This document shows positions 23,163 through 36,834 of a DNA stretch of 64,000 bases, in pieces. The position numbers were made by a program, and so were the translations under genes. The stretch covers positions 1-64,000 of the forward strand of contig NZ_JWHL01000008.1 of assembly GCF_018132105.1 (NCBI RefSeq), read 5' to 3'. The notes beneath the pieces were generated by a model that ran no database searches, was not told the DNA's origin, and saw only the letters and a program-made list of their open reading frames with translations. The stretch's first letter is position 1, and every line of letters begins with the position of its first letter. Origin of the DNA: Methanocalculus chunghsingensis (GTDB lineage: Archaea > Halobacteriota > Methanomicrobia > Methanomicrobiales > Methanocorpusculaceae).

Positions 23163-23204
23163 GACTATAAAACATAACATCCCGGAGAATCGAACCACTC
23201 TCCG
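23163..23204 (-). promoter_or_regulatory. pdxST promoter with upstream inverted repeat
   Basis: On the minus strand ATGTTTTATAGTC (23163-23175) is a good TATA element about 23-35 bases before the pdxS ATG at 23140, predicting a near-leaderless mRNA. Just upstream is CGGAGA-(10 bases)-TCTCCG (23183-23204 on the plus strand), a possible activator or repressor site. Confidence 0.5.
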
Positions 23205-23210
23205 ATGGTA

Positions 23211-23245
23211 TCCCGAGATATCGAATATCAGACTCGGGAAAAAAT
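23211..23245 (-). terminator. Likely end of the cohesin-dockerin operon
   Basis: Twelve bases after the last gene of the cluster its strand reads a T6 run (23240-23245). It is followed by the inverted repeat TCCCGAG-(15 bases)-CTCGGGA (23211-23239 on the plus strand). Oligo-T is the usual archaeal termination signal. The hairpin could equally belong to the pdxS promoter region. Confidence 0.4.
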
Positions 23246-23257
23246 TTGAGATACTAT

Positions 23258-25543
23258 TTATCCAAGTTGTATCGCACCCACATAATGATACGCAATTTTT
23301 GCAGCATCACTGTGATTTACCGGATCGGAAAGAGGATCCGTTAATTTCGCCCTGGGATCCTGGTCAATGAGTCCGACCGCAATGTATGCCACTCTTGCAA
23401 CATCTCCGATATCCACCCTGCCGTTGCCATTCAGATCACCTCTCGGATTGACAATAATATACTCATTTCGTGTCAGCGTATCGTTTCCGGCATGATTTGA
23501 TACCGTGAGGGATACCCGGTATCTTCCCGGGATTTCGAAGATCGTTATGGGATGCTGATCACGGACGATTGTTTTGTCACCAAAACTCCATTCCCAATTG
23601 TCCGGGTAGCCGGTTGACCGATCGGTGAAAGTTACAGTAAGAGGGGCAGGACCAACGAGCAGATCTGCAGCAAAATCGGCAACAGGAGGGGAAGGGGGAG
23701 TTGATGGTGAAAATACAAAGACGGCGTTATGGGTTGCATCTGTCACATAGAGATCACCACGGCTATCAACGGCAATTCCGGACGGAGATGAGAGGCGACC
23801 AGTGCCAAATGATCCGATATATGTTCCGTTCTGATGAAATGCGATAATTCTTCCATTTCCGGCATCTGCGATGAACAGTTCTCCATAAGGAGATATGGCA
23901 ACATCGCGGGGCGCTGTCAGCCCCCCATCACCTTCAAGCGAAGGGCCGTAGGTGCGGATCTGGACCCCGGATCGATCATAAGCAACCACGCGGTTATTCC
24001 CGGAGTCGGAAACATAGAGGGTATCATCACGATCAAACCGGACACCCTGCGGGGATCTGAACTCTCCATCACCCGACCCCTGTGAGCCGAAATGGCGGAT
24101 AAAGCCACCCTCAGAGTTAAAGAGATCAATCCTGTGGTTTCCTGTATCAGCAATAGCAAGAACCCCGGATCGGTTTATGGCAATGCCGCCGGGAAATGAG
24201 AGCTCTCCCTGGAGAGATCCCCTCTCACCAAATGAACGAAGGAACTGCATATCCGAGTCAAATATCCGGATTTGGTGGTTCCCTGTATCAGCCACATAGA
24301 GCCGGCCGGCTTCATCATAGGAGACGCCGACAGGTCCGCCCAGGTTTTCTCCCGGAGCACCGGTGATCTCCTGGACGAAGGTGCCTTCAGAAGAAAAGAT
24401 CATGATCCGGTTATTCAGCATATCTGCGACAGAGACGATGCCTGATGAGGATATGGCGATGCCACGAGGAGAACTCAGAAACGATCCCCAGCTCCTCCGG
24501 AAGAGATAATATTCGGGATCAGCGGGAGAGGTGACGGTGATATACCCCTCTCGTGTTGAACGATTACTCCCTATGTCTTTCCCGGTGGTGAGGCTGACGG
24601 TATAGGTACCGACATCTTCATAGATCTTTGTTGGATGCTGTTCTTCAGAGGCTGTTCCATCTCCAAAATCCCAGAGCCAGAAGTCCGGATCTCCGGTGGA
24701 ATGATCGGTAAAAGCAACAAGGAGTGGTGCAGCCCCGCTGGTCGGATCTCCAAGAAAATGTGCAGTGGGTGGAAGAGGTGTTTCCTGAACGTGGATAAAG
24801 TCTTCTTTTGTGAGGATACTACTCCCCCCGGTATTCGACACCGTCAGGGATACAGTATAGAGTCCGGGTATGGTGTATATCTTTGTCGGGTGCTGTTCCA
24901 TTGAACCGGTTGCATCTCCAAAATCCCATAAAAATTCATCAGGATTCCCATCTGACTGATCCATAAAGCGGACAGATAAAGGGGCAACACCTGCAACCGG
25001 ATCAGCACTGAATCGTGCAGCAGGCTTCTGGGGAGGAACAGGGACATCCCCGACATTGAGAACAGCCGAGGAGACGATCGGATCATATTTGCCTGGTCCC
25101 AGGGGATCGATACTATCTACCTGGATCTGCAGAGGAGTATATCCACGTGCAATCGCCCGGACAGAGATGGTGATCAGGAGAACCTCCCCTGTCCCGGCAG
25201 CACCGGTAAGATCAACTGCCTTGCATCTGACCAATTGACCGGGAAGGGTACTGTTCTCCGGGAGATCCGCCCACCCGGGAAAGAGGACTGACGTTATCTC
25301 GCCGATTTCTGGATCATCAATCTGGATGATGAATTCGTACCCTGAAATTCCATCAGGAGCATCCTCTACCAGAAATGAATATTCGACCAGATCGCCAACT
25401 TCAGCAACCAGATATTCGGGATCAGGGATGATCGAGATGGGAACTCCATTGTTCTGGATTGAAGGGGCCTCATCGGCGCCTGCCGAAGCTGTCAGACATA
25501 GGCAGGCAAGAAGAAGAAAGAGGAGATGAGAAGAGATCTTCAC
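23258..25543 (-). CDS. Exported cohesin-like/PKD/NHL/PKD/dockerin protein
   Basis: This 761-residue surface protein has, in order: a signal peptide (LLFLLLACLCLTASAGA), a cohesin-like beta-sandwich (about 40-165, with ISGYEFIIQI, VLFPGWADL and VRCKAVDL), two PKD domains (about 175-335, WDFGDATG and WDFGDGTA), six NHL repeats (about 345-615, e.g. RLYVADTGNHQIRIF), a third PKD domain, and a C-terminal dockerin. The first dockerin loop DLNGNGRVDIGD is intact; the second (NHSDAAKIAYHYVG) has lost most calcium ligands. GTG 25543 is chosen because it directly follows the upstream stop with CGGAG before it. It is the last gene of the cluster. Confidence 0.85.
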   Translation of the reverse strand: MKISSHLLFLLLACLCLTASAGADEAPSIQNNGVPISIIPDPEYLVAEVGDLVEYSFLVEDAPDGISGYEFIIQIDDPEIGEITSVLFPGWADLPENSTLPGQLVRCKAVDLTGAAGTGEVLLITISVRAIARGYTPLQIQVDSIDPLGPGKYDPIVSSAVLNVGDVPVPPQKPAARFSADPVAGVAPLSVRFMDQSDGNPDEFLWDFGDATGSMEQHPTKIYTIPGLYTVSLTVSNTGGSSILTKEDFIHVQETPLPPTAHFLGDPTSGAAPLLVAFTDHSTGDPDFWLWDFGDGTASEEQHPTKIYEDVGTYTVSLTTGKDIGSNRSTREGYITVTSPADPEYYLFRRSWGSFLSSPRGIAISSSGIVSVADMLNNRIMIFSSEGTFVQEITGAPGENLGGPVGVSYDEAGRLYVADTGNHQIRIFDSDMQFLRSFGERGSLQGELSFPGGIAINRSGVLAIADTGNHRIDLFNSEGGFIRHFGSQGSGDGEFRSPQGVRFDRDDTLYVSDSGNNRVVAYDRSGVQIRTYGPSLEGDGGLTAPRDVAISPYGELFIADAGNGRIIAFHQNGTYIGSFGTGRLSSPSGIAVDSRGDLYVTDATHNAVFVFSPSTPPSPPVADFAADLLVGPAPLTVTFTDRSTGYPDNWEWSFGDKTIVRDQHPITIFEIPGRYRVSLTVSNHAGNDTLTRNEYIIVNPRGDLNGNGRVDIGDVARVAYIAVGLIDQDPRAKLTDPLSDPVNHSDAAKIAYHYVGAIQLG

Positions 25544-25544
25544 G

Positions 25545-26336
25545 CTAATTCTCCGGATCACGACCATGCAGAGATCCAATCAACAGCAGGGCGATGAGAG
25601 ATCCCAGAATGGGAAGGAATAGCCCTCCGGGAGATTTCTGAAGATCCGGTTCATCGACCGAAACCACCTGATCCTCCATATGACCAGATTCGGAATCCAG
25701 AGGGGTCACTTGATCTGCTACAGGCTCGGGAGTCTCTTCCGGCGTTGCGACTGTTGTGATACCAGGAGTCATGGCAGGTGTGGGTGTGGGAGTGGGAGTC
25801 GCGGTAACAACAGGTGTTGAAGATGAGGACCCCCCTCCACCGGAACCACCGGATGCCGGAGAAGCACTAACACCGACAGTCACAGGAATGACAATGGGTG
25901 AACCATTATACAGATCGCCAAAGTCATCTTCAAGGATATGCGGAGTGATGGTTATGGTTGCCATACCATTGGCAACGCCGGCAAGAGAGAGGACTGCAAA
26001 CTGAAATGAACCCTCTCCAGGTTCTGCCAGCTGGGAGAGATCAACACCCCTTATATGACCGGTTTCTGTGCCTGGAGATACAAATTCTTCCAGCATCACC
26101 CATTCCGCGAAGGTTACATCGGCAACATCAAGGATATGCGGATCCGTCACTTCAAGATTGAGATGGAACCCTGATATCCCATCTGTAGCACCGGTGATTC
26201 CGATCGTCAGAGGAATTTGCTGACCAACACCGAGAGAAAGACTCCCGGCTGGCGATACAATAACATCAGCCCCGAGGGCAGGTGTTACCAGAAAGCATAG
26301 AGAGACGATAATTACTGATACAATATTTATTCTCAT
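25545..26336 (-). CDS. Membrane-anchored cohesin-like protein
   Basis: This 263-residue protein has a signal peptide (VSVIIVSLCFLVTPALG), one cohesin-like domain (about 25-155, with DGISGFHLNLEVTDP and DVTFAEWVML), and a Gly/Ser then Pro/Thr-rich linker (about 160-225). A C-terminal hydrophobic helix (LFLPILGSLIALLLIGSL) follows, with a short charged end. It has no dockerin. It is thus the only member of the cluster that looks fixed in the membrane, and could be the cell-surface base to which dockerin proteins bind. Its stop is one base before the GTG of the next gene and its start 4 bases after the previous stop, so the three genes are translated as one unit. Confidence 0.8.
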   Translation of the reverse strand: MRINIVSVIIVSLCFLVTPALGADVIVSPAGSLSLGVGQQIPLTIGITGATDGISGFHLNLEVTDPHILDVADVTFAEWVMLEEFVSPGTETGHIRGVDLSQLAEPGEGSFQFAVLSLAGVANGMATITITPHILEDDFGDLYNGSPIVIPVTVGVSASPASGGSGGGGSSSSTPVVTATPTPTPTPAMTPGITTVATPEETPEPVADQVTPLDSESGHMEDQVVSVDEPDLQKSPGGLFLPILGSLIALLLIGSLHGRDPEN

Positions 26337-26340
26337 AAAA

Positions 26341-28227
26341 TCATCCTACCCACCCATTTAGGATTACAACATCATTAAAGCCGATATATCCATTTGCATC
26401 ATAGTCATAATGCAGAATGCGGCCATGATCACCATCGCGTATCGGCCCGATGTTGCGATAATACACCACGACATCATTAAAGCCCAGTCGTCCATTTCCA
26501 TCAAGATCATTATAATGCATCCCCTGAATGAAAGGTTCAGAATTGGAGCTGGGAGAGATACTCCTCTGATCCGGGAAATCGCCCTCAAGTCCTCCGGGGA
26601 ACGGGAGCCGATCCTTAACGATAATCTCCGAAGAAATAACAACCGAACGATATAAATTCCCCTGTTTATCCTCAACCTCGAAAACCGGTCCATCGACCTC
26701 ATCCAGAATACCCAGAATATACTCTCCGGTTGTAGAGGTGCGTATTGTGAGGTCGAGAAGATGGATGGTTCCATGTCCGGAATCACCATTCAGATCGATG
26801 GCACGACACCATACAGTACTCGATGGGAGAAGAGAGAGATCATTGAACTGTGCCCATGTGGGGAAGGTAAGATCAACAATCGGCAATAGATCAAGGAATG
26901 GGTTCTCTGTTCCCACGGTAACAGTGAGATTATATCCGGAGAGATCATCGGGAACCTGCCCCTCCGGAACTCTCAGGAACAGGCTGAATGAGTGATCCTT
27001 GTCAGGAACAGAGATGATCTTGTCGGGTACGAAATAGAGTTCCGGTGCAGGCGTTACCCGTATCAGGTCGGTCATGGTCACCGTACTCCTCCCCTCCTCA
27101 TTTTCAACCGTCAGGCTGACTGTATACAGACCGGGAGTTGTATAGGTATGTCGGGGATTTTCAACATCGGAAGTCGCACCGTCACCAAAATCCCAATGCC
27201 AGCTTAAAGGAGCCCGTTCAACCAGCTCCTGCCGGGTATAGGTGAACTGGATGGAGAGCGGAACGGAGTTTGTCGTATCCAGACGGGTATGGCTGAAACC
27301 GGCTATCGGAGGAAGAGGGTTACCTCTTGGAGCAAAGATTGCGATCCGGGCATTTCCCGTATCAACCGCATATACATACGGAGTTCTCCCGGTCTGGCCA
27401 ACCATCCTCACCGCAACACCACGGGGGAAACGAAGGTGATCAGAACCGAATATGGCAAGAATGTCGCCCGTATCATTCCACTTTTTTATCTGGCGGGCAT
27501 TATAATCAACATTATAGATATCCCCTGCATCAGAAACCGTGATACCATAACCACCGGTCGTCCACTGGTTTATATACTCGCCATCGGGAGCGAATTTCTG
27601 AATCCGACTATTTATCTCATCCATTACATAGAGATTTCCCATATTGTCAACCGTAACCCCGCTCGGATACCTGAATCTCCCTTCAGAGGTACCTGATCCA
27701 CCTAAAAAACGTATATGTGTCCCTGATTTAGTGAATATCTGGATCCTGTTGTTCCCGGTATCAGCGATATAGATGTATGCGGCATCAACTGCAATCCCTG
27801 AAGGCTGGAGCAAACCATATTCACCGGAACCATATGATCCAAAAGATAAGAGGTGGGATCCATTTTGGGCAAAGACCTGAACCCGGTTGTTGCCGGTATC
27901 TGCTACATAGATCCTCCCACTATCATCGACGGCAACGCCCCGGGGTTGTGAAAAGCCGCCATCAGCAACCCCTTCTCCCCCCCACTGACGAATAAAGCTG
28001 CCATAACCATCAAACATCTGGATACGATGGTTATCGGTATCAGCTACATAGATATTCCCCTGGATGTCCACAGCAATACCAATCGGTGTCAGGAACTCCC
28101 CATCACCCGATCCGGATGTCCCAAACGACCCGATGAAAATATACTCCTCCAGTGCGGATGAAGGGGTGCCGGCAATGAGTGCCAGCCCGAACAGTAGTAC
28201 AAAAATGATTTTTTTCCCTGGTATCAT
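26341..28227 (-). CDS. Exported NHL/PKD/cohesin-like/dockerin protein
   Basis: This 628-residue protein has a signal peptide (IIFVLLFGLALIAGTPSSA), a six-bladed NHL propeller (about 28-305, e.g. RIYVADTGNNRVQVF), a PKD domain (about 312-400, WHWDFGDGATSD), a cohesin-like domain (about 405-545, with LSGYNLTVTV, LTFPTWAQF and VWCRAIDL) and a C-terminal dockerin with two intact F-hand-like loops, DLDGNGRLGFND and DYDANGYIGFND. The module order differs from the two longest cluster members, which begin with the cohesin-like domain. No catalytic module is seen. The role is probably structural or adhesive at the cell surface. Confidence 0.85.
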   Translation of the reverse strand: MIPGKKIIFVLLFGLALIAGTPSSALEEYIFIGSFGTSGSGDGEFLTPIGIAVDIQGNIYVADTDNHRIQMFDGYGSFIRQWGGEGVADGGFSQPRGVAVDDSGRIYVADTGNNRVQVFAQNGSHLLSFGSYGSGEYGLLQPSGIAVDAAYIYIADTGNNRIQIFTKSGTHIRFLGGSGTSEGRFRYPSGVTVDNMGNLYVMDEINSRIQKFAPDGEYINQWTTGGYGITVSDAGDIYNVDYNARQIKKWNDTGDILAIFGSDHLRFPRGVAVRMVGQTGRTPYVYAVDTGNARIAIFAPRGNPLPPIAGFSHTRLDTTNSVPLSIQFTYTRQELVERAPLSWHWDFGDGATSDVENPRHTYTTPGLYTVSLTVENEEGRSTVTMTDLIRVTPAPELYFVPDKIISVPDKDHSFSLFLRVPEGQVPDDLSGYNLTVTVGTENPFLDLLPIVDLTFPTWAQFNDLSLLPSSTVWCRAIDLNGDSGHGTIHLLDLTIRTSTTGEYILGILDEVDGPVFEVEDKQGNLYRSVVISSEIIVKDRLPFPGGLEGDFPDQRSISPSSNSEPFIQGMHYNDLDGNGRLGFNDVVVYYRNIGPIRDGDHGRILHYDYDANGYIGFNDVVILNGWVG

Positions 28228-28363
28228 CGATGATCACATCCATTCATTCCATGGAGTCCGGACAGTGCTTCATGATGAACTGCCTGACCGCCCTCTATCA
28301 GAATGCATACTCGTTTCTCTCTCCCCTCGGCAATAGATCCCATCTGACGTTCTCTCTTCAGTA

Positions 28364-30655
28364 TCATATACCATCTCCGCCCGGTGGCCCGGTCATCCCC
28401 AGATATGCGTAGGCAATATAGGCTGCATCAGCTCCATCCACCACTCCGTCTTCGTTGAAGTCGGCCTCCTTAACACCCTCACCATATCCTGCTGCCATAT
28501 AGGCGACCCGTGAGAGATCCCCGATATCGATCCGTCCATTTCTGTTCAGATCACCCCTGAGGTGGACAGTGATGAAGTCATTTTGAACCATGGTTGCCAT
28601 TCCTCCCTGATTACCGGCAGTAAGTGAGACGGTGTACGTGCCTGGAGAGGAATATATCTTTTCAGGATACCGGGAGACATTCATCGTCCCATCTCCGAGA
28701 TTCCAGTTCCATGAGGTGACACGCCCCATAGAGATATCATCAAACCGAACCGTAAGCGGGGCATATCCTGAACGGGGAGTGGCAGTGAAGGCTGGAGATG
28801 GTGGAGCAACAGGACCATGATAGGTGATGATGGCAACCCTGTGGAGGCTGCTGTCGGTAATATAGAGAGTCCCATTACAATCGACGGCGATGCCGGAAGG
28901 GGAGGTGATATCAACCGAAGAGGGGGCCTCATTGTTGATTATATGAAGAATCTCTCCATTCAGATCCATGGCAACGATCCTGGTGTTCCCCGTATCAGCG
29001 ACATAGAAAAACCCTTCCGGGCTCCATGCCAGATCCCTGGGACGGTTCAGCTGATCATCACCGGCGTCATACTCCCCAAATACCCGGAAATCCAGAGAGA
29101 GGTCGATAGCGACGATACGGTTATTCTCCCGATCTGCTATATAGATCGTCTCTGAGGGATCGATTGTCATCCCTTGTGGGTACTGGAACTGCCAGATGCC
29201 GCTCCCATACGATCCTCGACTCCAGACAAGATCTCCATCCGGATTAAAGAGCTGGATCCGATGGTTCGATGTGTCGGAGACATACATGAATCCTGAACGG
29301 TTCACCACCACATCGCCAGGGAAGAGAAGCTCCCCATGTTCCGACCCCCGTGATCCAATCTCTCTCTGATAACTTCCGGAAGAATCAAAGGTGATAATCC
29401 GGTGGTTTCCTGCATCAGCAAGGTAGATGTCACCCTTCGCATCGACACAAAGACCAACCGGAACACTCAGATCTGCTCCTATACTCTTTATGACACTTCC
29501 TTCATTATCAAAGATCATAACCCGGTTATTCTGCCTGTCGGCAACGATGATCTCCCCGGCAGGAGAGACGGCGATTCCGGCTGGATCCCGAAACCGGACG
29601 GGTGAAAAGCCATATGATCCAAATGTTCTGCTGAGGAGATATCCGGGTTCGGTCCTGAAGATAACGGTATTGGAGATACCTTCGCTATACCCTCCCAGTA
29701 CCACCAGTCGGATCTGATAGTCGGTATATGGAGCCAGGCCATCCAGAATGGTCTCCCCGGCATCAGGGGGAATCGGGGTATGATTACCTGCTTCCCATCT
29801 TGTTCCGCCATCTGTACTCACCTCAGGGTGTACTGATTGTGCATCAACAGCAGGAGTCCAGGTGAGGTGTGCGGATCCGGATGTAGTGTTTATCACCGTC
29901 AGATCGGTGACGGGGATCACAGGTCTGGGGGTTGGGGTCGGAGCAGGCGTCGGCGTCGGAACCGGAGTGGGAGTGGCCGTAGGTGTCGGCTCAGGAGTCG
30001 GAGCAGGCGTCGGCGTCGGAACCGGAGTGGGAGTGGCCGTAGGTGTCGGCTCAGGGGTCGGAGCAGGCGTCGGCGTCGGCGTCGGAACCGGAGTGGGAGT
30101 GGCCGTAGGTGTCGGCTCAGGGGTCGGAGCAGGCCTGACGACCACCTCAACTGGTGTCAGGTGAGGTAGATACAGGCCACCCTGTCGATCATCAATCAGG
30201 GATTCTTCGGATAGATGAACCGTTGTATTGCCAGGCGAGAGAGCATGCAGGGTAAATGAGATGAGGGTGACATTGCCGGTTCCCCCTGCCCCCGTAAGAT
30301 CTATCGCCTTGCACCAGACCGCATCAGCAGGAGATCCACTCTTCTGGTAGGTGGAAAGATACGCCCATTCCGGAAAGGCAATTTGATCTATCTCAACAAT
30401 ACCCGGTTCACCGAGATACATGCTGATGTTGTATCCGGCAAACCCACTCCGGGCTGGATCCAGGTAGAGTGTTATCGCCAGCTTCTCACCAGAAGTTAGC
30501 GAAAGGATCCCCGGCTCTGCTATGATGACCGGGGGAAGATCCCCTTCGTCCATGGGATTGGGGTTCAGGGATAACAGACCGGAGTGGGCAGAAGCAGATG
30601 TACAGATTGAGAGAAGGCAGAGAGAAACCAGCAGAAGCAGATACCATAAAGGCAT
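28364..30655 (-). CDS. Exported cohesin-like/FN3/NHL/PKD/dockerin protein
   Basis: This 763-residue protein has a signal peptide ([21 protein letters not shown]), a cohesin-like domain (about 30-170, [27 protein letters not shown]), a Pro/Thr linker of near-perfect repeats (about 175-250), a fibronectin type III domain, six NHL repeats, a PKD domain (WNWNLGDGT) and a dockerin with both calcium loops intact ([24 protein letters not shown]). ATG 30655 gives the signal peptide at the N-terminus; the frame is open up to 30823 and earlier ATGs cannot be excluded. The linker is encoded by 60-base tandem repeats. Confidence 0.84.
29941..30126. repeat. Three tandem 60-66 bp repeats encoding the Pro/Thr linker
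   Basis: Copies run 29941-30000, 30001-30060 and 30061-30126. The first two differ at a single base and the third has an extra 6 bases. They encode a PTPxP-type linker in the exported cohesin-dockerin protein. Such high identity in a synonymous-tolerant region points to recent duplication and probable length variation between strains. Confidence 0.9.
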
Positions 30656-30887
30656 CCCGAGAGATACGAAGCGAGACCGGAATAGCAGGTTTTTTGGTTC
30701 CCTTTTGAGAGAATACACTCCATTGTTTCGGGATTCATACCCCCCGGTACAGGATACCATGACATTCTCTGGTCGTATCCTAAGCGGCGTTGAAGGGGAA
30801 ATAGTATTATCAACCCGTATCATTTTCTCTATTTAATCGTGAAGCCTTCATCTCCGGGAAAAGAGAGAGGGGATCAGGATTCTCTCC

Positions 30888-32747
30888 TCATGACCATTCC
30901 AACGCATTATACAGGGTTATAACGTCATTAAACCCAATCCATCCATTCTCATCATAATCAAAATAATCGATATCCCCATGCTCTCCTTCCTTGATCGTAT
31001 TCATATAGTTATAGAAGATGACAATATCATTGAACCCGATAAACCCGTTTCCATCGAGATCCTCATAGGTTCCCGATATTTTCCCCCTCATGGTCGGATT
31101 TGGAAATGAACCAAATGGCAGGACATCAGAGATGCGTATCTGCTTTGATTGAACAATAACCCCATTATTTGGTTGGTATGTCCGTCCTTCACGATCCTGA
31201 ATTGCACGCGGACCGCCGCCCACCATCATCATCGCATTTCCTCGCGTTGTGCCACCCTCAACCGTCAGATCCAGTAGATGTATCTCCCTGCTCGCCACGA
31301 CATCGGAGCGTATATCGGTTGCTGTACAGGTAACAACGACAGATGGAAGGTTTGAGACGTGATCAAAATGAGCCCATGCAGGGAACTCCACATCAATGTA
31401 TTCTGCAACCCCGTTATCTGTAAGAGAGAGTGTCAGATTGAATCCCGAGAGAACACCGGATCCTCCGGCTGGATAGACAAGCCAGAGCCCGAACTTCTCG
31501 GTCTGTCCGGGTCCCAACCGGATCTCGTATCTGTCCTCCAGAGTATAGGGCCGGAACTCAAGATACGGCATCACAGGAGCCTCAGTGACCGTGATACAAT
31601 TCGTCTTCACCTCTGTTGAGCTCCCCTCGTTATTTGTAACCGTCAGGGTTATTGTATAGGTTCCCGGTGTTTCGTACCGATATTGGGGGTTTTGCTCGGT
31701 GAGTACTGTTCCGTCTCCCAGATCCCATCTCCATGATGTCGGGTTATTGAAAGATTCGTCTGTAAACCAGACATTAAGGGGTGCTGATCCATGGGTTGGC
31801 GATGCGGTAAACCCTGCAACCGGAGGAAGAGGATATCCTGCCGGTACCCAGATGGACACCCGGTTATTCCCGGTATCTGCAACATAAACAAAAGGCGTCA
31901 GGCCAAGTCCTCCGGATCTTCGGACTGCAACACCACGGGGGCTTGAGAATTCTGCATCTCCTGCACCACCGGATCCAAACACAAGGAGCGTCTCACCTTC
32001 AGGGGTCTGCTTGATGATCCGATCATTGGCGGGATCGGCGAGATACACCAGGTTATTGTCATCAGCAGCGATGCCATATCCTGGTGTATCCCAGGCCCTC
32101 TGGAATGTGCCAGCAGTATTAAAACACTGAATCCGGCCGTTCAGGTCATCGATAACATAGATATAACCTGATTCATTCACCATCACGTCAACAGGATTGA
32201 GAAACTGCCCCTCACCGGTTCCGGGACCTCCAAAAGACTCAAAGACCCCGCTTATACGGTTAATCTTCTGTATCCTGTTATTACCGGAGTCTGCAACATA
32301 AATCCAGTTGATTGTATCGACCGCAATACCGGTCGGGCTGGTGAGCTGTCCCGCACCATCTCCATATGAACCATAGGAACGCTGATACACACCTTCCGAG
32401 TCATACACGACAATCCGGTGGTTGTTGGTATCCGCAACATAGACCCGATCGCCCCGATCGACTGCGATCCCCTTTGGATACTGAAACTCCAGTTCACCGG
32501 TTCCAAATGAACCCCATTCCCTGATGAAAGTACCGGCCTGATCAAACTTGACAACCCGGCTGTTATATGTATCAGCAACATAGACATTACCGGTCGAATC
32601 GATGGCAACATCGTACGGGCGATCAAATGGCGAATCCAGTACCTCAAACGACTTGAAAAAGATATACTCCTCCTCTGCCAGACATGGTGAACAGAGGAGG
32701 CCAAGACCGAGAATTACTCCAAGGTATATCAATGTAGTACACTTCAT
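30888..32747 (-). CDS. Exported NHL/PKD/cohesin-like/dockerin protein
   Basis: This 619-residue protein has a signal peptide (LIYLGVILGLGLLCSPCLA), six NHL repeats (about 30-305, e.g. RVYVADTNNHRIVVY), a PKD domain (WRWDLGDGT), a cohesin-like domain (about 410-545, LSGFNLTLSL, VEFPAWAHF, VTCTATDI) and a dockerin with two intact loops (DLDGNGFIGFND, DYDENGWIGFND). ATG 32747 is chosen over the ATG at 32792 since it begins the signal peptide and has AGGAT upstream. It is closely related in layout to the 26341-28227 and 34635-36578 genes, suggesting tandem duplication. Confidence 0.85.
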   Translation of the reverse strand: MKCTTLIYLGVILGLGLLCSPCLAEEEYIFFKSFEVLDSPFDRPYDVAIDSTGNVYVADTYNSRVVKFDQAGTFIREWGSFGTGELEFQYPKGIAVDRGDRVYVADTNNHRIVVYDSEGVYQRSYGSYGDGAGQLTSPTGIAVDTINWIYVADSGNNRIQKINRISGVFESFGGPGTGEGQFLNPVDVMVNESGYIYVIDDLNGRIQCFNTAGTFQRAWDTPGYGIAADDNNLVYLADPANDRIIKQTPEGETLLVFGSGGAGDAEFSSPRGVAVRRSGGLGLTPFVYVADTGNNRVSIWVPAGYPLPPVAGFTASPTHGSAPLNVWFTDESFNNPTSWRWDLGDGTVLTEQNPQYRYETPGTYTITLTVTNNEGSSTEVKTNCITVTEAPVMPYLEFRPYTLEDRYEIRLGPGQTEKFGLWLVYPAGGSGVLSGFNLTLSLTDNGVAEYIDVEFPAWAHFDHVSNLPSVVVTCTATDIRSDVVASREIHLLDLTVEGGTTRGNAMMMVGGGPRAIQDREGRTYQPNNGVIVQSKQIRISDVLPFGSFPNPTMRGKISGTYEDLDGNGFIGFNDIVIFYNYMNTIKEGEHGDIDYFDYDENGWIGFNDVITLYNALEWS

Positions 32748-32843
32748 ATCCTGACACCCGCGTTTATTAAACAATCCATTGTTTATCAGCAACCTAAACC
32801 ATTCCAGATACCTGTCATCATCCTTTCAGCACCCTGCCGGTTT

Positions 32844-34556
32844 TCAGACCATCTCGTAGAGCACCACCACATCATTAAACCCGATTCGGCCGTTTCCATC
32901 ATAATCAAAGAGCTCTATCTGGCCAAAGTCTCCGAGTCGCAACACCTCGATATTTTCATAGAATAAGATGACATCATTAAACCCGATTCTTCCATTGCCA
33001 TCAAGATCCTCATAAAGCCGATCTCCGGTCATATCCTGGGGTTTTGGAAAGAATCCTCCTTGAGGCTTTGGAAAATGGCGAAGGAGATTAATATAATCAC
33101 TTTTTGTGATGGTATCAGATCCGCCGCCATTTCTGACCATGAGGCTGACAGTATAGATTCCCGGGGTAGTGTAGCTGTATACCGGGTTTTCAAGGGTTGA
33201 TTCACCGCCATCACCAAACATCCAGTGCCACTCATCGATGGTTCCTGATGAGAGATCACTAAATGAGATAGAGAGGGGAGCATTGCCTTCTCTGATATCG
33301 GCATCGAATGCTGCCGATGGAGGTGGCGGATGTGCGGTGATGATGGAGTCCGTGATTATATGATCCTCCCCACCTGCATTCGTGACGGTGAGAGAGATCG
33401 AATAGGTGCCAGGATCCTGATAGACATGAACCGGATGCTGCTCTGATGAGGTTGTCCCATCCCCGAAATCCCAGAGCCATGCATCAACGGTACCTGTCGA
33501 TCGATCCGTCAGTGTAACAGGGAATGGGATAATTCCTTCAGTCTGATTGACAAAAAAATCAGCCTGGGGAGGGGGTGGCATCTCTTTGACCGTAATCGAT
33601 CGATCTTGAAGGGCCGGGCAGTACAGTCCACCCTGACGATCATCGATAAGATGCCCCTCAAGAATACCAATCCCGGCCTCTCCCGGCGCGACTGCACGGA
33701 CGGTCATCATGACAAGGGCCACTTCTCCTGTTCCGGAATCACCGGCCAGATCAACCGCCTTGCACCAGACACTCTCTGCTGGAAGCGGTCCATGCTCCGG
33801 CATATTTGCCCATGAAGGGAAGGAGACCGATGTGATCTCAAGAACCGAGGAGTCAGAGACAAAACCCGTAATATTATAGCCGGAAATGCCCTGATCCGCG
33901 TTCTCCATCACCACGGTATAGACAGCCGTCTGCCCGACGGAGAGTTCGTCCTCATCCCCTGCAAGAAGAACAGAGGATGTATCCGGTTGAGGGCTGGGTG
34001 TTGGTTCAGGAGTCGGAATGGGGGTGGGCTCAGGAGTTGGTGTCGGTCCGGGATCTGACCCAACATGCAGAAGAGCAGAGATGGGAGGGGGATATTCCCG
34101 ATAACCGGCTGCATCATCGAGATACCCCTCCCCGGAACGAATCCTGATTCCGGTCATCCCGGGGGCATCAGCCCTGATACGAAGAGTCAGGACGGTAATA
34201 TCCGAACCGCCGGGGCCGTCCCCGAGATCTGCACCCCTGCACCAGACCTCATCACCCGGAAGTGAACTCTGCTGCCGTAGATCAACCCATGAAGGGAAGA
34301 TTACCTCAACAATCTCCCCAACATCGGGGTTATCAAGATAAAAGCTTATATTAAATCCAATGAGACCATTCGGGGCAGTTATCGCCTTCAGGGTAACATC
34401 AATACTATCTCCCGTCCCTGCGGTAACCTCAGCCGGAATGAAGGCCATCTCATAGGATGATCCGGATGAGGACTCCGGAGAGACCAGAACTGCCGAACCA
34501 CCGGGTACAAGAAGCAAAGAGACTATGATAATCAGGAGCCAGACTGCCGGTTTCAT
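32844..34556 (-). CDS. Exported double cohesin-like/double PKD/dockerin protein
   Basis: This 570-residue protein has a signal peptide (LLIIIVSLLLVPGGSA), a first cohesin-like domain (about 35-165, LIGFNISFYL, VIFPSWVDL, VWCRGADL), a Pro/Thr linker (about 173-195), a second cohesin-like domain (about 200-325, ISGYNITGFV, VSFPSWANM, VWCKAVDL), two PKD domains (WLWDFGDGT, WHWMFGDGG) and a dockerin with two intact loops (DLDGNGRIGFND, DYDGNGRIGFND). It is the only member with two cohesin-like domains and no NHL propeller, so it would be the branching scaffoldin if the pairing model holds. Confidence 0.86.
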   Translation of the reverse strand: MKPAVWLLIIIVSLLLVPGGSAVLVSPESSSGSSYEMAFIPAEVTAGTGDSIDVTLKAITAPNGLIGFNISFYLDNPDVGEIVEVIFPSWVDLRQQSSLPGDEVWCRGADLGDGPGGSDITVLTLRIRADAPGMTGIRIRSGEGYLDDAAGYREYPPPISALLHVGSDPGPTPTPEPTPIPTPEPTPSPQPDTSSVLLAGDEDELSVGQTAVYTVVMENADQGISGYNITGFVSDSSVLEITSVSFPSWANMPEHGPLPAESVWCKAVDLAGDSGTGEVALVMMTVRAVAPGEAGIGILEGHLIDDRQGGLYCPALQDRSITVKEMPPPPQADFFVNQTEGIIPFPVTLTDRSTGTVDAWLWDFGDGTTSSEQHPVHVYQDPGTYSISLTVTNAGGEDHIITDSIITAHPPPPSAAFDADIREGNAPLSISFSDLSSGTIDEWHWMFGDGGESTLENPVYSYTTPGIYTVSLMVRNGGGSDTITKSDYINLLRHFPKPQGGFFPKPQDMTGDRLYEDLDGNGRIGFNDVILFYENIEVLRLGDFGQIELFDYDGNGRIGFNDVVVLYEMV

Positions 34557-34634
34557 GCCAGTATCACCATCCCTGTCCCTGCCAGATGCATAATCATAAC
34601 GAGCAATAGTTGAGAGTGAGAGGAGATTCTCCCA

Positions 34635-36578
34635 TCACTCGATTGCACGGTAGAGCGTCCTCATATCATTTGTCGTAATTCCGCCAACACCATCATAGTT
34701 ATAGTAATCAACTGTACCATGATTGCCGGTAGCGATTGCATCCATATTATTCCAGAAGATGACGACATCATTGAAGCCGATTCTCCCGTTTCCATCGAGA
34801 TCTTCATAGGTATTTGCAATAATACCACGTGCCGTTGGCGAGGGGAAGAGGCCTCCTGATGGCCGGGGGAATGACAGGACCCCTTCAACATTGATGACGG
34901 CATCATTGACAACCGGCCGATAGATCCCTCCTTCACGATCAGCGATATGGATCTCATCACCGGAATCACCCGGTATCGAAGTCTTCTCAATCGTCAGTAC
35001 TGTTGATCCGCTTCCGCTATCGGCAACAACCACCAGATCGAAGAGATGAAGAGAGTCTCTTCCTGATTCACCATTCAGATCAACCGCTGTCACCCAGACA
35101 CTGCTTCCAGGGAGCGCGGCATATTCGGTCTGGAATTCATAGGCATTCCAGAGAGGGGACGGGCGGACATCTGTGATCTTCACATTATCATTTGAGAGGC
35201 TGAGCGTGATATTAAACCCGGAGAGATCATTCGGGGTATGTCCTGCCGGAATATCGAGCCAGAGACCGATGATCTGCTCCTGGCCGATCGTCAGATCCAT
35301 CTGATCGGGATCGAAGGTGAGATGGGGAGCGGCAGTCACACTGAAGAGATCAGATTTGGTGATCGTGTCGGTCCCTTCTCCGTTTCTCACTGTCAGGCGG
35401 ACCGAGTACGTTCCTACATCGGTGAATTCATGCGTGTAGTTACGCTGTTCATAAGACTGGGTCTCATAGAGGATACCCCATGGACCTCCATCTCTGGAGA
35501 CCTCCCATCGCCATGTTGTCGGCTTTCTCCCCTCAGGATCTGAACTGGATGTATCGTTGAGCCATACCCCATGAGGCACAGATGCCGGAGTGATACTCTC
35601 GAATTCAAAATCAGCGATAGGAGGGAGGGTTGAACCTTCAGGCGCCCAGATCGAGATTCTGTTATTGCCGGTATCTGCCACATAAATAAATGGAGTCCTT
35701 CCAGGCGTTGCCAGAACCCGCTTGATCCCGATATCACGGGGCTCATCCAGCTGACTGATCCCGGGATCATCACCAAACGCTGTTATTGATCCACCTACGT
35801 TGTCTGTTACCCTGATCAGATTCGAAGTCCAGTCTGTTGAGAAGATGTTGTTCTCCTCATTTATCAGGATACCATACCCATCGGAAGCCCAGCTTCTCTG
35901 GTAGACGCCATTGATATCAAAGACCTGAACCCGGAAGTTCTGCTGATCCATCACATATATATTCATTGACGAATCGACCGAGATGCCGACCGGATATCGG
36001 AATGTTCCATTAATGGTTCCCGCCTGGCCAAAAGCCCTCACAAAGCTGCCATCTTTATTAAGTATCTGGATGCGATGATTCTCGGTATCAGCAACATAGA
36101 GATAGGTATCATCGACCGCAACAGCACCCGGACTCTTCATCTCTCCATTCGCACTTCCAAATGAGCCGAATGTTCGCCATTGCCCACCTGCCCGATCGAT
36201 GCGGACAATCCGGTGATTCTTTGTATCAGCAATGTAGATGAAACCCTGGTTATCGACGACAATCCCTTTTGGTTCATGGAACTGGCGCTCCCCGGACCCC
36301 TGGGTTCCAATTGACCATTCCACAGTTCCAAATGGATCAAACTTCACCACCCGGTGATTCTGGGTATCTGCAACATAGACATTTCCATCATCCAGGGAGT
36401 CAACCGCAACACCATAGGGATTTGCAAGGGGAATTCCTCCGGACTGTCCGCTCCCTGCCATTGTTCCATTGAAGGAATCGACATAGATATGAGCAGCAGT
36501 CGTTGTTCCGGGAATAAGAAAGACAAGAAGGAGCCATATCATCGCCCCTGTAACCAGATATCGTGATGTTGTACTCAT
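34635..36578 (-). CDS. Exported NHL/PKD/cohesin-like/dockerin protein (first gene of cluster)
   Basis: This 647-residue protein has a signal peptide (GAMIWLLLVFLIPGTTTAA), six NHL repeats (about 35-310), a longer PKD domain (WRWEVSRDGG), a cohesin-like domain (about 420-570, LSGFNITLSL, VWVTAVDL with Val replacing the usual Cys) and a dockerin. The first loop DLDGNGRIGFND is intact; the second (NYDGVGGITTND) lacks the first Asp and the fifth-position ligand. ATG 36578 follows GAGAGGTG and begins the signal peptide. TATA elements upstream mark it as the promoter-proximal gene of the cluster. Confidence 0.85.
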   Translation of the reverse strand: MSTTSRYLVTGAMIWLLLVFLIPGTTTAAHIYVDSFNGTMAGSGQSGGIPLANPYGVAVDSLDDGNVYVADTQNHRVVKFDPFGTVEWSIGTQGSGERQFHEPKGIVVDNQGFIYIADTKNHRIVRIDRAGGQWRTFGSFGSANGEMKSPGAVAVDDTYLYVADTENHRIQILNKDGSFVRAFGQAGTINGTFRYPVGISVDSSMNIYVMDQQNFRVQVFDINGVYQRSWASDGYGILINEENNIFSTDWTSNLIRVTDNVGGSITAFGDDPGISQLDEPRDIGIKRVLATPGRTPFIYVADTGNNRISIWAPEGSTLPPIADFEFESITPASVPHGVWLNDTSSSDPEGRKPTTWRWEVSRDGGPWGILYETQSYEQRNYTHEFTDVGTYSVRLTVRNGEGTDTITKSDLFSVTAAPHLTFDPDQMDLTIGQEQIIGLWLDIPAGHTPNDLSGFNITLSLSNDNVKITDVRPSPLWNAYEFQTEYAALPGSSVWVTAVDLNGESGRDSLHLFDLVVVADSGSGSTVLTIEKTSIPGDSGDEIHIADREGGIYRPVVNDAVINVEGVLSFPRPSGGLFPSPTARGIIANTYEDLDGNGRIGFNDVVIFWNNMDAIATGNHGTVDYYNYDGVGGITTNDMRTLYRAIE

Positions 36579-36591
36579 CGAACACCTCTCA

Positions 36592-36708
36592 AAGTATAAA
36601 GTATTATAAGCATTCATTGAAGATGCGATCAGCTCCACAGCTTTTGTGAAATGCATGACCCCCTCTGCAAGTATCGCAGATATTAGTTCAAAATAATATA
36701 AAGATTGT
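36592..36708 (-). promoter_or_regulatory. Promoter region of the cohesin-dockerin cluster
   Basis: Two TATA-like elements face the cluster on the minus strand. TTATAATAC at 36601-36609, about 25-30 bases before the ATG, and CTTTATATTATTT near 36696-36708, would give short and about 100-base leaders respectively. The gap between genes (36579-36834) is strongly A/T-rich compared with its surroundings; nothing else was recognised in it. Confidence 0.5.
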
Positions 36709-36834
36709 GGATATGATTATGCGAGTATAAGGTCAGCATCACAGATTAGTGATGATTTCCTGGCTGATTCAAACACCCATAAATGAAGTAAAAAGGCAAC
36801 AGGAAAGTGAATATTTTTATTAATTTTTTATATT

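Follow-up and report, generated by a model that had tools for sequence, protein, structure and literature searches.

The DNA considered here (hereafter the window) comprises 64,000 nucleotides of contig NZ_JWHL01000008.1 from Methanocalculus chunghsingensis, and the system in question is a cluster of seven consecutive, intact minus-strand open reading frames (ORFs), P1 to P7, which occupy positions 23258-36656 and encode proteins with cohesin-like and dockerin-like domains (Table 1). A signal-like hydrophobic segment is present at the N-terminus of all seven proteins, and the intergenic spacing ranges from -35 to +136 bp. As this leaves nothing wider than a 136-bp gap between neighbours, which overlap by at most 35 bp, the genes may be co-transcribed; a bacterial promoter scan of the locus gave a result no better than shuffled sequences. 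Inspection of the upstream sequence places the probable true ATG of P7 at 36578, the very position at which the original prediction had ended the cluster. The host genome (2.13 Mb, 99.5% complete) contains mcrA, and the host is therefore a methanogen, as had been supposed. Its order was fixed as Methanomicrobiales by an exact sequence match that identified a relative in the order, G103, as Methanogenium cariaci.

Eight cohesin-like domains (two of them in P6) and six dockerin-like domains were counted across the seven proteins, the dockerins being of two types, termed docA and docB. The cohesin type of the cluster is referred to as cohW, and the ordinary, Pfam-type cohesins as PF00963. The modular make-up proposed from the sequence alone was borne out in that NHL (P1, P3, P4, P5, and P7), PKD (six proteins), and FN3 (P4 alone) all exceed their Pfam cut-offs, and in that cohesin and dockerin occur together in six proteins, P1 and P3-P7. 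P3, P5, and P7 share the order propeller-PKD-cohesin-docB, P6 reads cohesin-cohesin-PKD-PKD-docB, and in P1 and P4 the cohesin lies toward the N-terminus, followed by the propeller and PKD and then docA. P2 is a predicted surface anchor, judging from its cohesin, its linker, and a C-terminal hydrophobic helix (17-residue hydropathy of 2.42); no sorting signal was reported by an NCBIfam scan of P2 and its counterparts in relatives.

With Pfam matches mostly below threshold, cohesin and dockerin calls would be unsafe from sequence alone. None of the P1-P7 cohesins exceeded the cut-off for PF00963 (best E = 2, in P6), and only two of 58 domains from the window and its relatives matched that family at E <= 0.1. 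A profile built from the eight suspected cohesins (cohW) aligned with canonical cohesins collinearly across 95 columns (hhalign, 61.6%), a distant similarity, and a sequence search of the PDB with cohesin profiles returned nothing useful. The cohesin jelly-roll fold is supported by an AlphaFold model of the cohesin and docB stretch of P3, built with 16 sequences at a predicted local distance difference test (pLDDT) score of 79.6. Its 19 best PDB matches were cohesins without exception, with TMt values as high as 0.76. They came from C. perfringens, C. thermocellum, A. cellulolyticus, Archaeoglobus fulgidus, and others, the A. fulgidus structure 2xdh being among them (E 7.6e-07, TMt 0.73). The cohW profile retrieved from the host genome all eight cluster cohesins and two weaker matches on contig C20. 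In a tree, seven of the eight fell into a supported clade with cohesins of families f4 and f3, that of P2 grouping weakly with cohesins of other anchors; P3, P5, and P7 cohesins formed one supported clade, consistent with an origin by duplication.

As regards the dockerins, Dockerin_1 (PF00404) surpassed its cut-off in P4 only (27.9 bits against 22.9) and was sub-threshold in P5 and P1, while P3 and P6 matched EF-hand models only, and weakly, and P7 matched neither Dockerin_1 nor an EF-hand model in the Pfam scan. Among 34 docB members, 24 matched PF00404 at E <= 0.01 and 31 matched EF-hand_1. The dockerin fold of docB, with two calcium loop-helix motifs in the dockerin arrangement, is supported by an AlphaFold model of the P5 domain (34 sequences, pLDDT 76.4), the 27 best PDB matches of which were all dockerins (prob 0.96, versus 0.04 for calmodulin). 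The suggestion from PDB hits of docB profile searches that docB is a calmodulin-like EF-hand was reversed by this fold search, in which dockerins ranked first. The spacing from loop to loop in docB is 34 residues, the value for dockerins, and both calcium loops are intact in the dockerins of P3, P4, P5, and P6. The Pfam check by which the original prediction was to be verified placed no cohesin and one dockerin above the cut-offs, and it is the predicted structures that support both folds. The host genome holds four copies of docB, all within the cluster (P3, P5, P6, and P7), and ten of docA, of which two lie in the cluster (P1 and P4) and eight on five other contigs, besides one far weaker match.

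The arrangement of anchor, adaptors, and scaffold recurs in several families of Methanomicrobiales. Anchors of 240-275 amino acids with a cohW cohesin and a transmembrane helix adjoin cohW-docB proteins in G087, G086, G144, G156, G084, and G011 (loci L079, L081, L084, L117, L118, and L121), G086 and G087 (L079 and L081) have scaffolds that bear two or three cohesins, and an NHL-cohW-docB protein was found in G196 (L115). The cargo in relatives includes a subtilase (S8-cohW-docB), a matrixin (M10-docB), Kelch domains, a calcineurin-like phosphoesterase, and a GDSL lipase (GDSL lipase-CBM6-docB). Within the order, 95 of the 232 genomes have cohW, and the class extends to further families of the phylum, with 105 of the 394 genomes sampled having it.

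The pairing of the modules was approached by their co-occurrence across the 232 genomes, ancestry being incompletely corrected for. Both docB and cohW were present in 80 genomes, docB only in 4, cohW only in 15, and neither in 133 (p = 3e-41), and docB was not associated with PF00963 (p = 0.14). Conversely, strong docA matches, by a cut-off (best E ~1e-13) chosen after the table had been seen, were associated with PF00963 (p = 3e-6) and not with cohW (p = 0.64); when all docA matches were taken, the association with PF00963 ran in the same direction but more weakly (p = 0.002), and that with cohW was negative (p = 0.02). The link between docB and cohW persisted at the level of genera (24/1/2/13, in the same order; p = 1e-7). 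Within genus g34, the size of which (37-39 genomes) was deduced from genome numbering, cohW was found in all six docB genomes versus one among the other 31-33 (p about 3e-6). We infer from this co-occurrence that cohW cohesins bind docB. P1 and P4 join a cohW cohesin to docA, which tracks the other cohesin class, and may in this respect correspond to an adaptor scaffoldin, with its two specificities in one protein; the cohesin-plus-dockerin architecture of such an adaptor is present in all six dockerin-bearing proteins.

Taken together, the evidence favours surface retention on the anchored P2 cohesin, with adaptors, and the two dockerin types seem to go with two separate cohesin systems. We consider it probable, albeit with considerable reservation, that the products of the cluster form a surface assembly, calcium-dependent and built on cohesins and dockerins, which holds NHL and PKD proteins on the methanogen cell. 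The P2 cohesin, tethered to the membrane through the C-terminal helix of P2, would be the socket. The docB domains of P3, P5, P6, and P7 would plug into it and also into the cohesins that the remaining proteins carry; adaptors with a single cohesin would lengthen the structure, and P6 with its two would branch it. The docA domains of P1 and P4 could engage the ordinary cohesins and anchors of contig C8 of the same genome and so bridge two systems, and the NHL propellers would be displayed as cargo that binds ligands or partners, in adhesion or matrix building.

Retention could also be achieved without a polymer, were each dockerin protein to dock singly on an anchored cohesin while the cohesins of P1 and P3-P7 receive other proteins. 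Such a tether would predict what is seen in genera g35 and g38, where docB modules, at least 18-29 per genome, far exceed the 0-5 cohW cohesins, and the dockerins of bacterial cellulosomes do not, as a rule, pair with a cohesin of the protein to which they belong. In the host genome, however, docB sits solely on cohesin-bearing proteins and cohesins outnumber docB by eight to four, making some chaining easy to build, and this alternative seems to us somewhat unlikely. The proposal that the propellers are accessory and that the assembly chiefly recruits proteases of the genome through docA, as an extracellular enzyme scaffold, draws on a subtilase and a papain-like protease of the same genome that bear docA and on enzyme-docB proteins in relatives; yet docA tracks the other cohesin type, and no protease lies within the cluster, which leaves this account unlikely.

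That the modules are mere stabilising or adhesive domains without mutual binding, and the cluster a set of ordinary modular adhesins, gains some appeal from the wide distribution of PKD, NHL, and EF-loop domains among archaeal surface proteins, and a cohesin fold by itself is no proof of dockerin binding. The double dissociation in co-occurrence and the recurring architecture of anchor, adaptor, and scaffold are nonetheless hard to explain without pairing, and we regard this explanation as quite improbable. Polysaccharide degradation in the manner of a cellulosome has the shared module types in its favour and nothing more. Neither the cluster nor the scanned docA proteins of the genome contain a glycoside hydrolase or a carbohydrate-binding domain; with no dockerin-bearing polysaccharide hydrolase and no cellulose-binding scaffold among them, a cellulosome function was rejected as barely credible.

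Several observations weigh against the calcium-dependent surface assembly with two pairings as set out above. Co-occurrence partly reflects common ancestry and a lifestyle rich in surface proteins. Five genomes, G058 and G060-G063 (loci L106, L107, L112, L122, and L123), carry cohW and docA with docB undetected, and a single supported clade unites cohesins of G060, G062, and G063 with seven of the eight in the window, so that some cohW cohesins may bind docA. A strict rule by which cohW binds docB only is thereby weakened, and because of the same exceptions the idea that P1 and P4 pair with the second system, and hence a bridge proposed from co-occurrence, is put forward as hypothesis. Moreover, the docA of P1 has lost its second calcium loop. 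By sequence, docB scores equally or better against EF-hands, and its single Foldseek E-values are weak (0.13 at best), as is to be expected with a domain of this size; the argument for its fold draws on the consistency of the match list.

The cluster appears to be a recent arrival. In all six sister genomes examined it is absent at this site, where pdxS abuts cbiB, and in the closest sister, G012, PdxS is 97% identical. The G+C content of the block is 50.5%, versus 56.3% and 54.6% in the flanks, and the host genome, G000, is the sole member of its family, f1, in the complete list of docB-matching genomes. The block was probably gained recently, with independent loss in the sisters as the alternative. 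The regions at the two edges of the block showed no internal repeats, and no tRNA marks the edges. A hairpin at window positions 23182-23205 spans the left edge, partly in sequence shared with G012, and could be either a terminator or something left behind by an insertion. More speculative is the fuller proposition of a horizontally gained, self-contained kit for a calcium-switchable, branched surface network with two orthogonal codes, in which P1 and P4 splice it onto a second network; this is offered as a tentative possibility that we would not bet on.

The second, docA-linked system is encoded elsewhere in the same genome. Contig C8 carries ordinary-cohesin anchors belonging to it (L018 and L019), and the docA proteins of the genome include one with a subtilase domain (S8, E 2.4e-54) and one with a papain-like protease domain (C1, E 2.2e-22) accompanied by lectin-like and Kelch domains. 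The original description of the cluster as lacking catalytic modules therefore holds for the cluster, by Pfam, and fails for the dockerin proteins of the genome at large; its non-cellulosomal setting and its judgement that polysaccharide degradation is unlikely, no hydrolase being present in the cluster, were upheld. It had overlooked these proteases, along with the predicted membrane anchor of P2, the two dockerin types, and the probable recent gain.

Cohesins and dockerins outside cellulosomes have precedents. A non-cellulosomal cohesin and dockerin of A. fulgidus (2xdh; Bayer 1999 and Peer 2009, as cited in PMC9012536) share with the present cluster the cohesin fold, an archaeal host, and the want of a cellulase context; the cluster differs from the system as presented there in bringing together eight cohesins with six dockerins, the latter of two types, in its dedicated putative membrane anchor, and in cohesins that lie below Pfam detection. 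Proteins of anaerobic methanotrophic archaea (ANME) with a dockerin and up to five cohesins have been tentatively tied to surface attachment or cell contact, with cargo that includes ATP-binding cassette (ABC) substrate-binding and S-layer proteins (PMC9012536, PMC5244752). The combination of a dockerin with several cohesins in one protein is common to both, whereas in the cluster the cargo consists of NHL propellers, a cohesin is joined to a predicted transmembrane anchor, and two dockerin types differ in their cohesin partners by co-occurrence. Bacteria are known to have adaptor scaffoldins (PMC4959524), and the cluster resembles the scaffoldins of the bacterial cellulosome in possessing a putative cell-anchored cohesin, proteins with cohesin and dockerin that may serve as adaptors, and multi-cohesin elements, but has no cellulases or cellulose-binding module, would be anchored by a C-terminal membrane helix, and has propellers as its cargo. 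Among the titles and abstracts returned by a literature search, none described such a kit in Methanomicrobiales.

The role of archaeal cohesins and dockerins outside cellulosomes is usually approached through scattered modules, and the cluster offers a compact and complete-looking set of putative anchor, adaptors, and branch with two dockerin types. Methanomicrobiales includes cultured members, and with sisters that lack the cluster at this site, its loss, gain, and binding are open to experiment. Given that Pfam barely detects cohW, domain surveys with Pfam-type models probably undercount such systems. Should the two dockerin types turn out to be orthogonal, designer protein scaffolds would gain new specificities from them.

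Table 1. Coordinates of the P1-P7 genes, their cohesin and dockerin domains, the acquired block, and the two docA proteases elsewhere in the genome (window positions unless a locus is named; aa, amino acids).
Feature	Position	Strand	Basis
P1, 773 aa: signal, cohesin, 2 PKD, 6 NHL, PKD, docA	23258..25579	-	ORF, Pfam, domain profiles
P1 cohesin (cohW type)	25046..25435	-	profile A1, 161 bits
P1 docA; calcium loop 1 intact, loop 2 lost	23267..23443	-	profile A3, 102.8 bits; loop check
P2, 263 aa: signal, cohesin, Gly/Ser-Pro/Thr linker, C-terminal membrane helix (predicted); no dockerin	25545..26336	-	ORF; hydropathy; same architecture in relatives
P2 cohesin (putative anchor)	25866..26267	-	140.2 bits
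P3, 628 aa: signal, 5 NHL, PKD, cohesin, docB	26341..28227	-	ORF, Pfam, domain profiles
P3 cohesin	26611..27042	-	159 bits; AlphaFold model of cohesin-docB stretch matches PDB cohesins
P3 docB, both calcium loops intact	26344..26517	-	108.8 bits; loop check
P4, 819 aa: signal, cohesin, Pro/Thr linker, FN3, 6 NHL, PKD, docA	28364..30823	-	ORF, Pfam, domain profiles
P4 cohesin	30134..30526	-	161.6 bits
P4 docA, both calcium loops intact	28391..28558	-	PF00404 27.9 bits, over cut-off; profile A3, 105.9 bits
P5, 634 aa: signal, 6 NHL, PKD, cohesin, docB	30888..32792	-	ORF, Pfam, domain profiles
P5 cohesin	31125..31562	-	142.5 bits
P5 docB, both calcium loops intact	30897..31070	-	114 bits; AlphaFold model, 27 PDB dockerins rank first
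P6, 570 aa: signal, two cohesins, 2 PKD, docB; possible branching element	32844..34556	-	ORF, Pfam, domain profiles
P6 cohesin 1	34059..34451	-	160.7 bits
P6 cohesin 2	33582..33974	-	175.3 bits
P6 docB, both calcium loops intact	32847..33017	-	110.1 bits; loop check
P7, ORF of 673 aa: signal, 5 NHL, PKD, cohesin, docB	34635..36656	-	ORF, Pfam, domain profiles
P7 cohesin	34884..35324	-	150.6 bits
P7 docB; calcium loop 2 without position-5 ligand	34638..34811	-	112.6 bits; loop check
Left boundary of block	23189..23190		alignment with G012: identity ends at 23189, then divergence
Acquired block (probable)	23190..36830		absent in six sisters; right edge inexact
Two docA proteases	L139:508-5508 and L023:11105-15193	-, -	domain scan: subtilase, papain-like

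Some further proteins of these systems deserve mention. In the neighbourhood of its cohesin anchors, contig C8 encodes (L018:13184-18418, minus strand) an exported protein of 1744 amino acids with two cohesins, a macroglobulin-type thioester domain (GCPEQ), and, at its C-terminus, a dockerin that represents a third type, possibly a case of covalent target capture in an archaeon; a protein of 1733 amino acids with a similar architecture is present in the sister G018 (L108). The genomes G196 and G212-G218 each hold 18-29 docB modules or more and at most 5 cohW cohesins, and the GDSL lipase with CBM6 lies at L088:6893-9142; the docB excess in these methanogen genomes looks like a general surface-retention tag, with a large dockerin-tagged exoproteome. 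Lastly, cohesin proteins at L079:12036-14282, L081:4488-7868, and L107:7858-11199 end in a further dockerin-like variant with the motif GDA[LM]FIAQYNVG.

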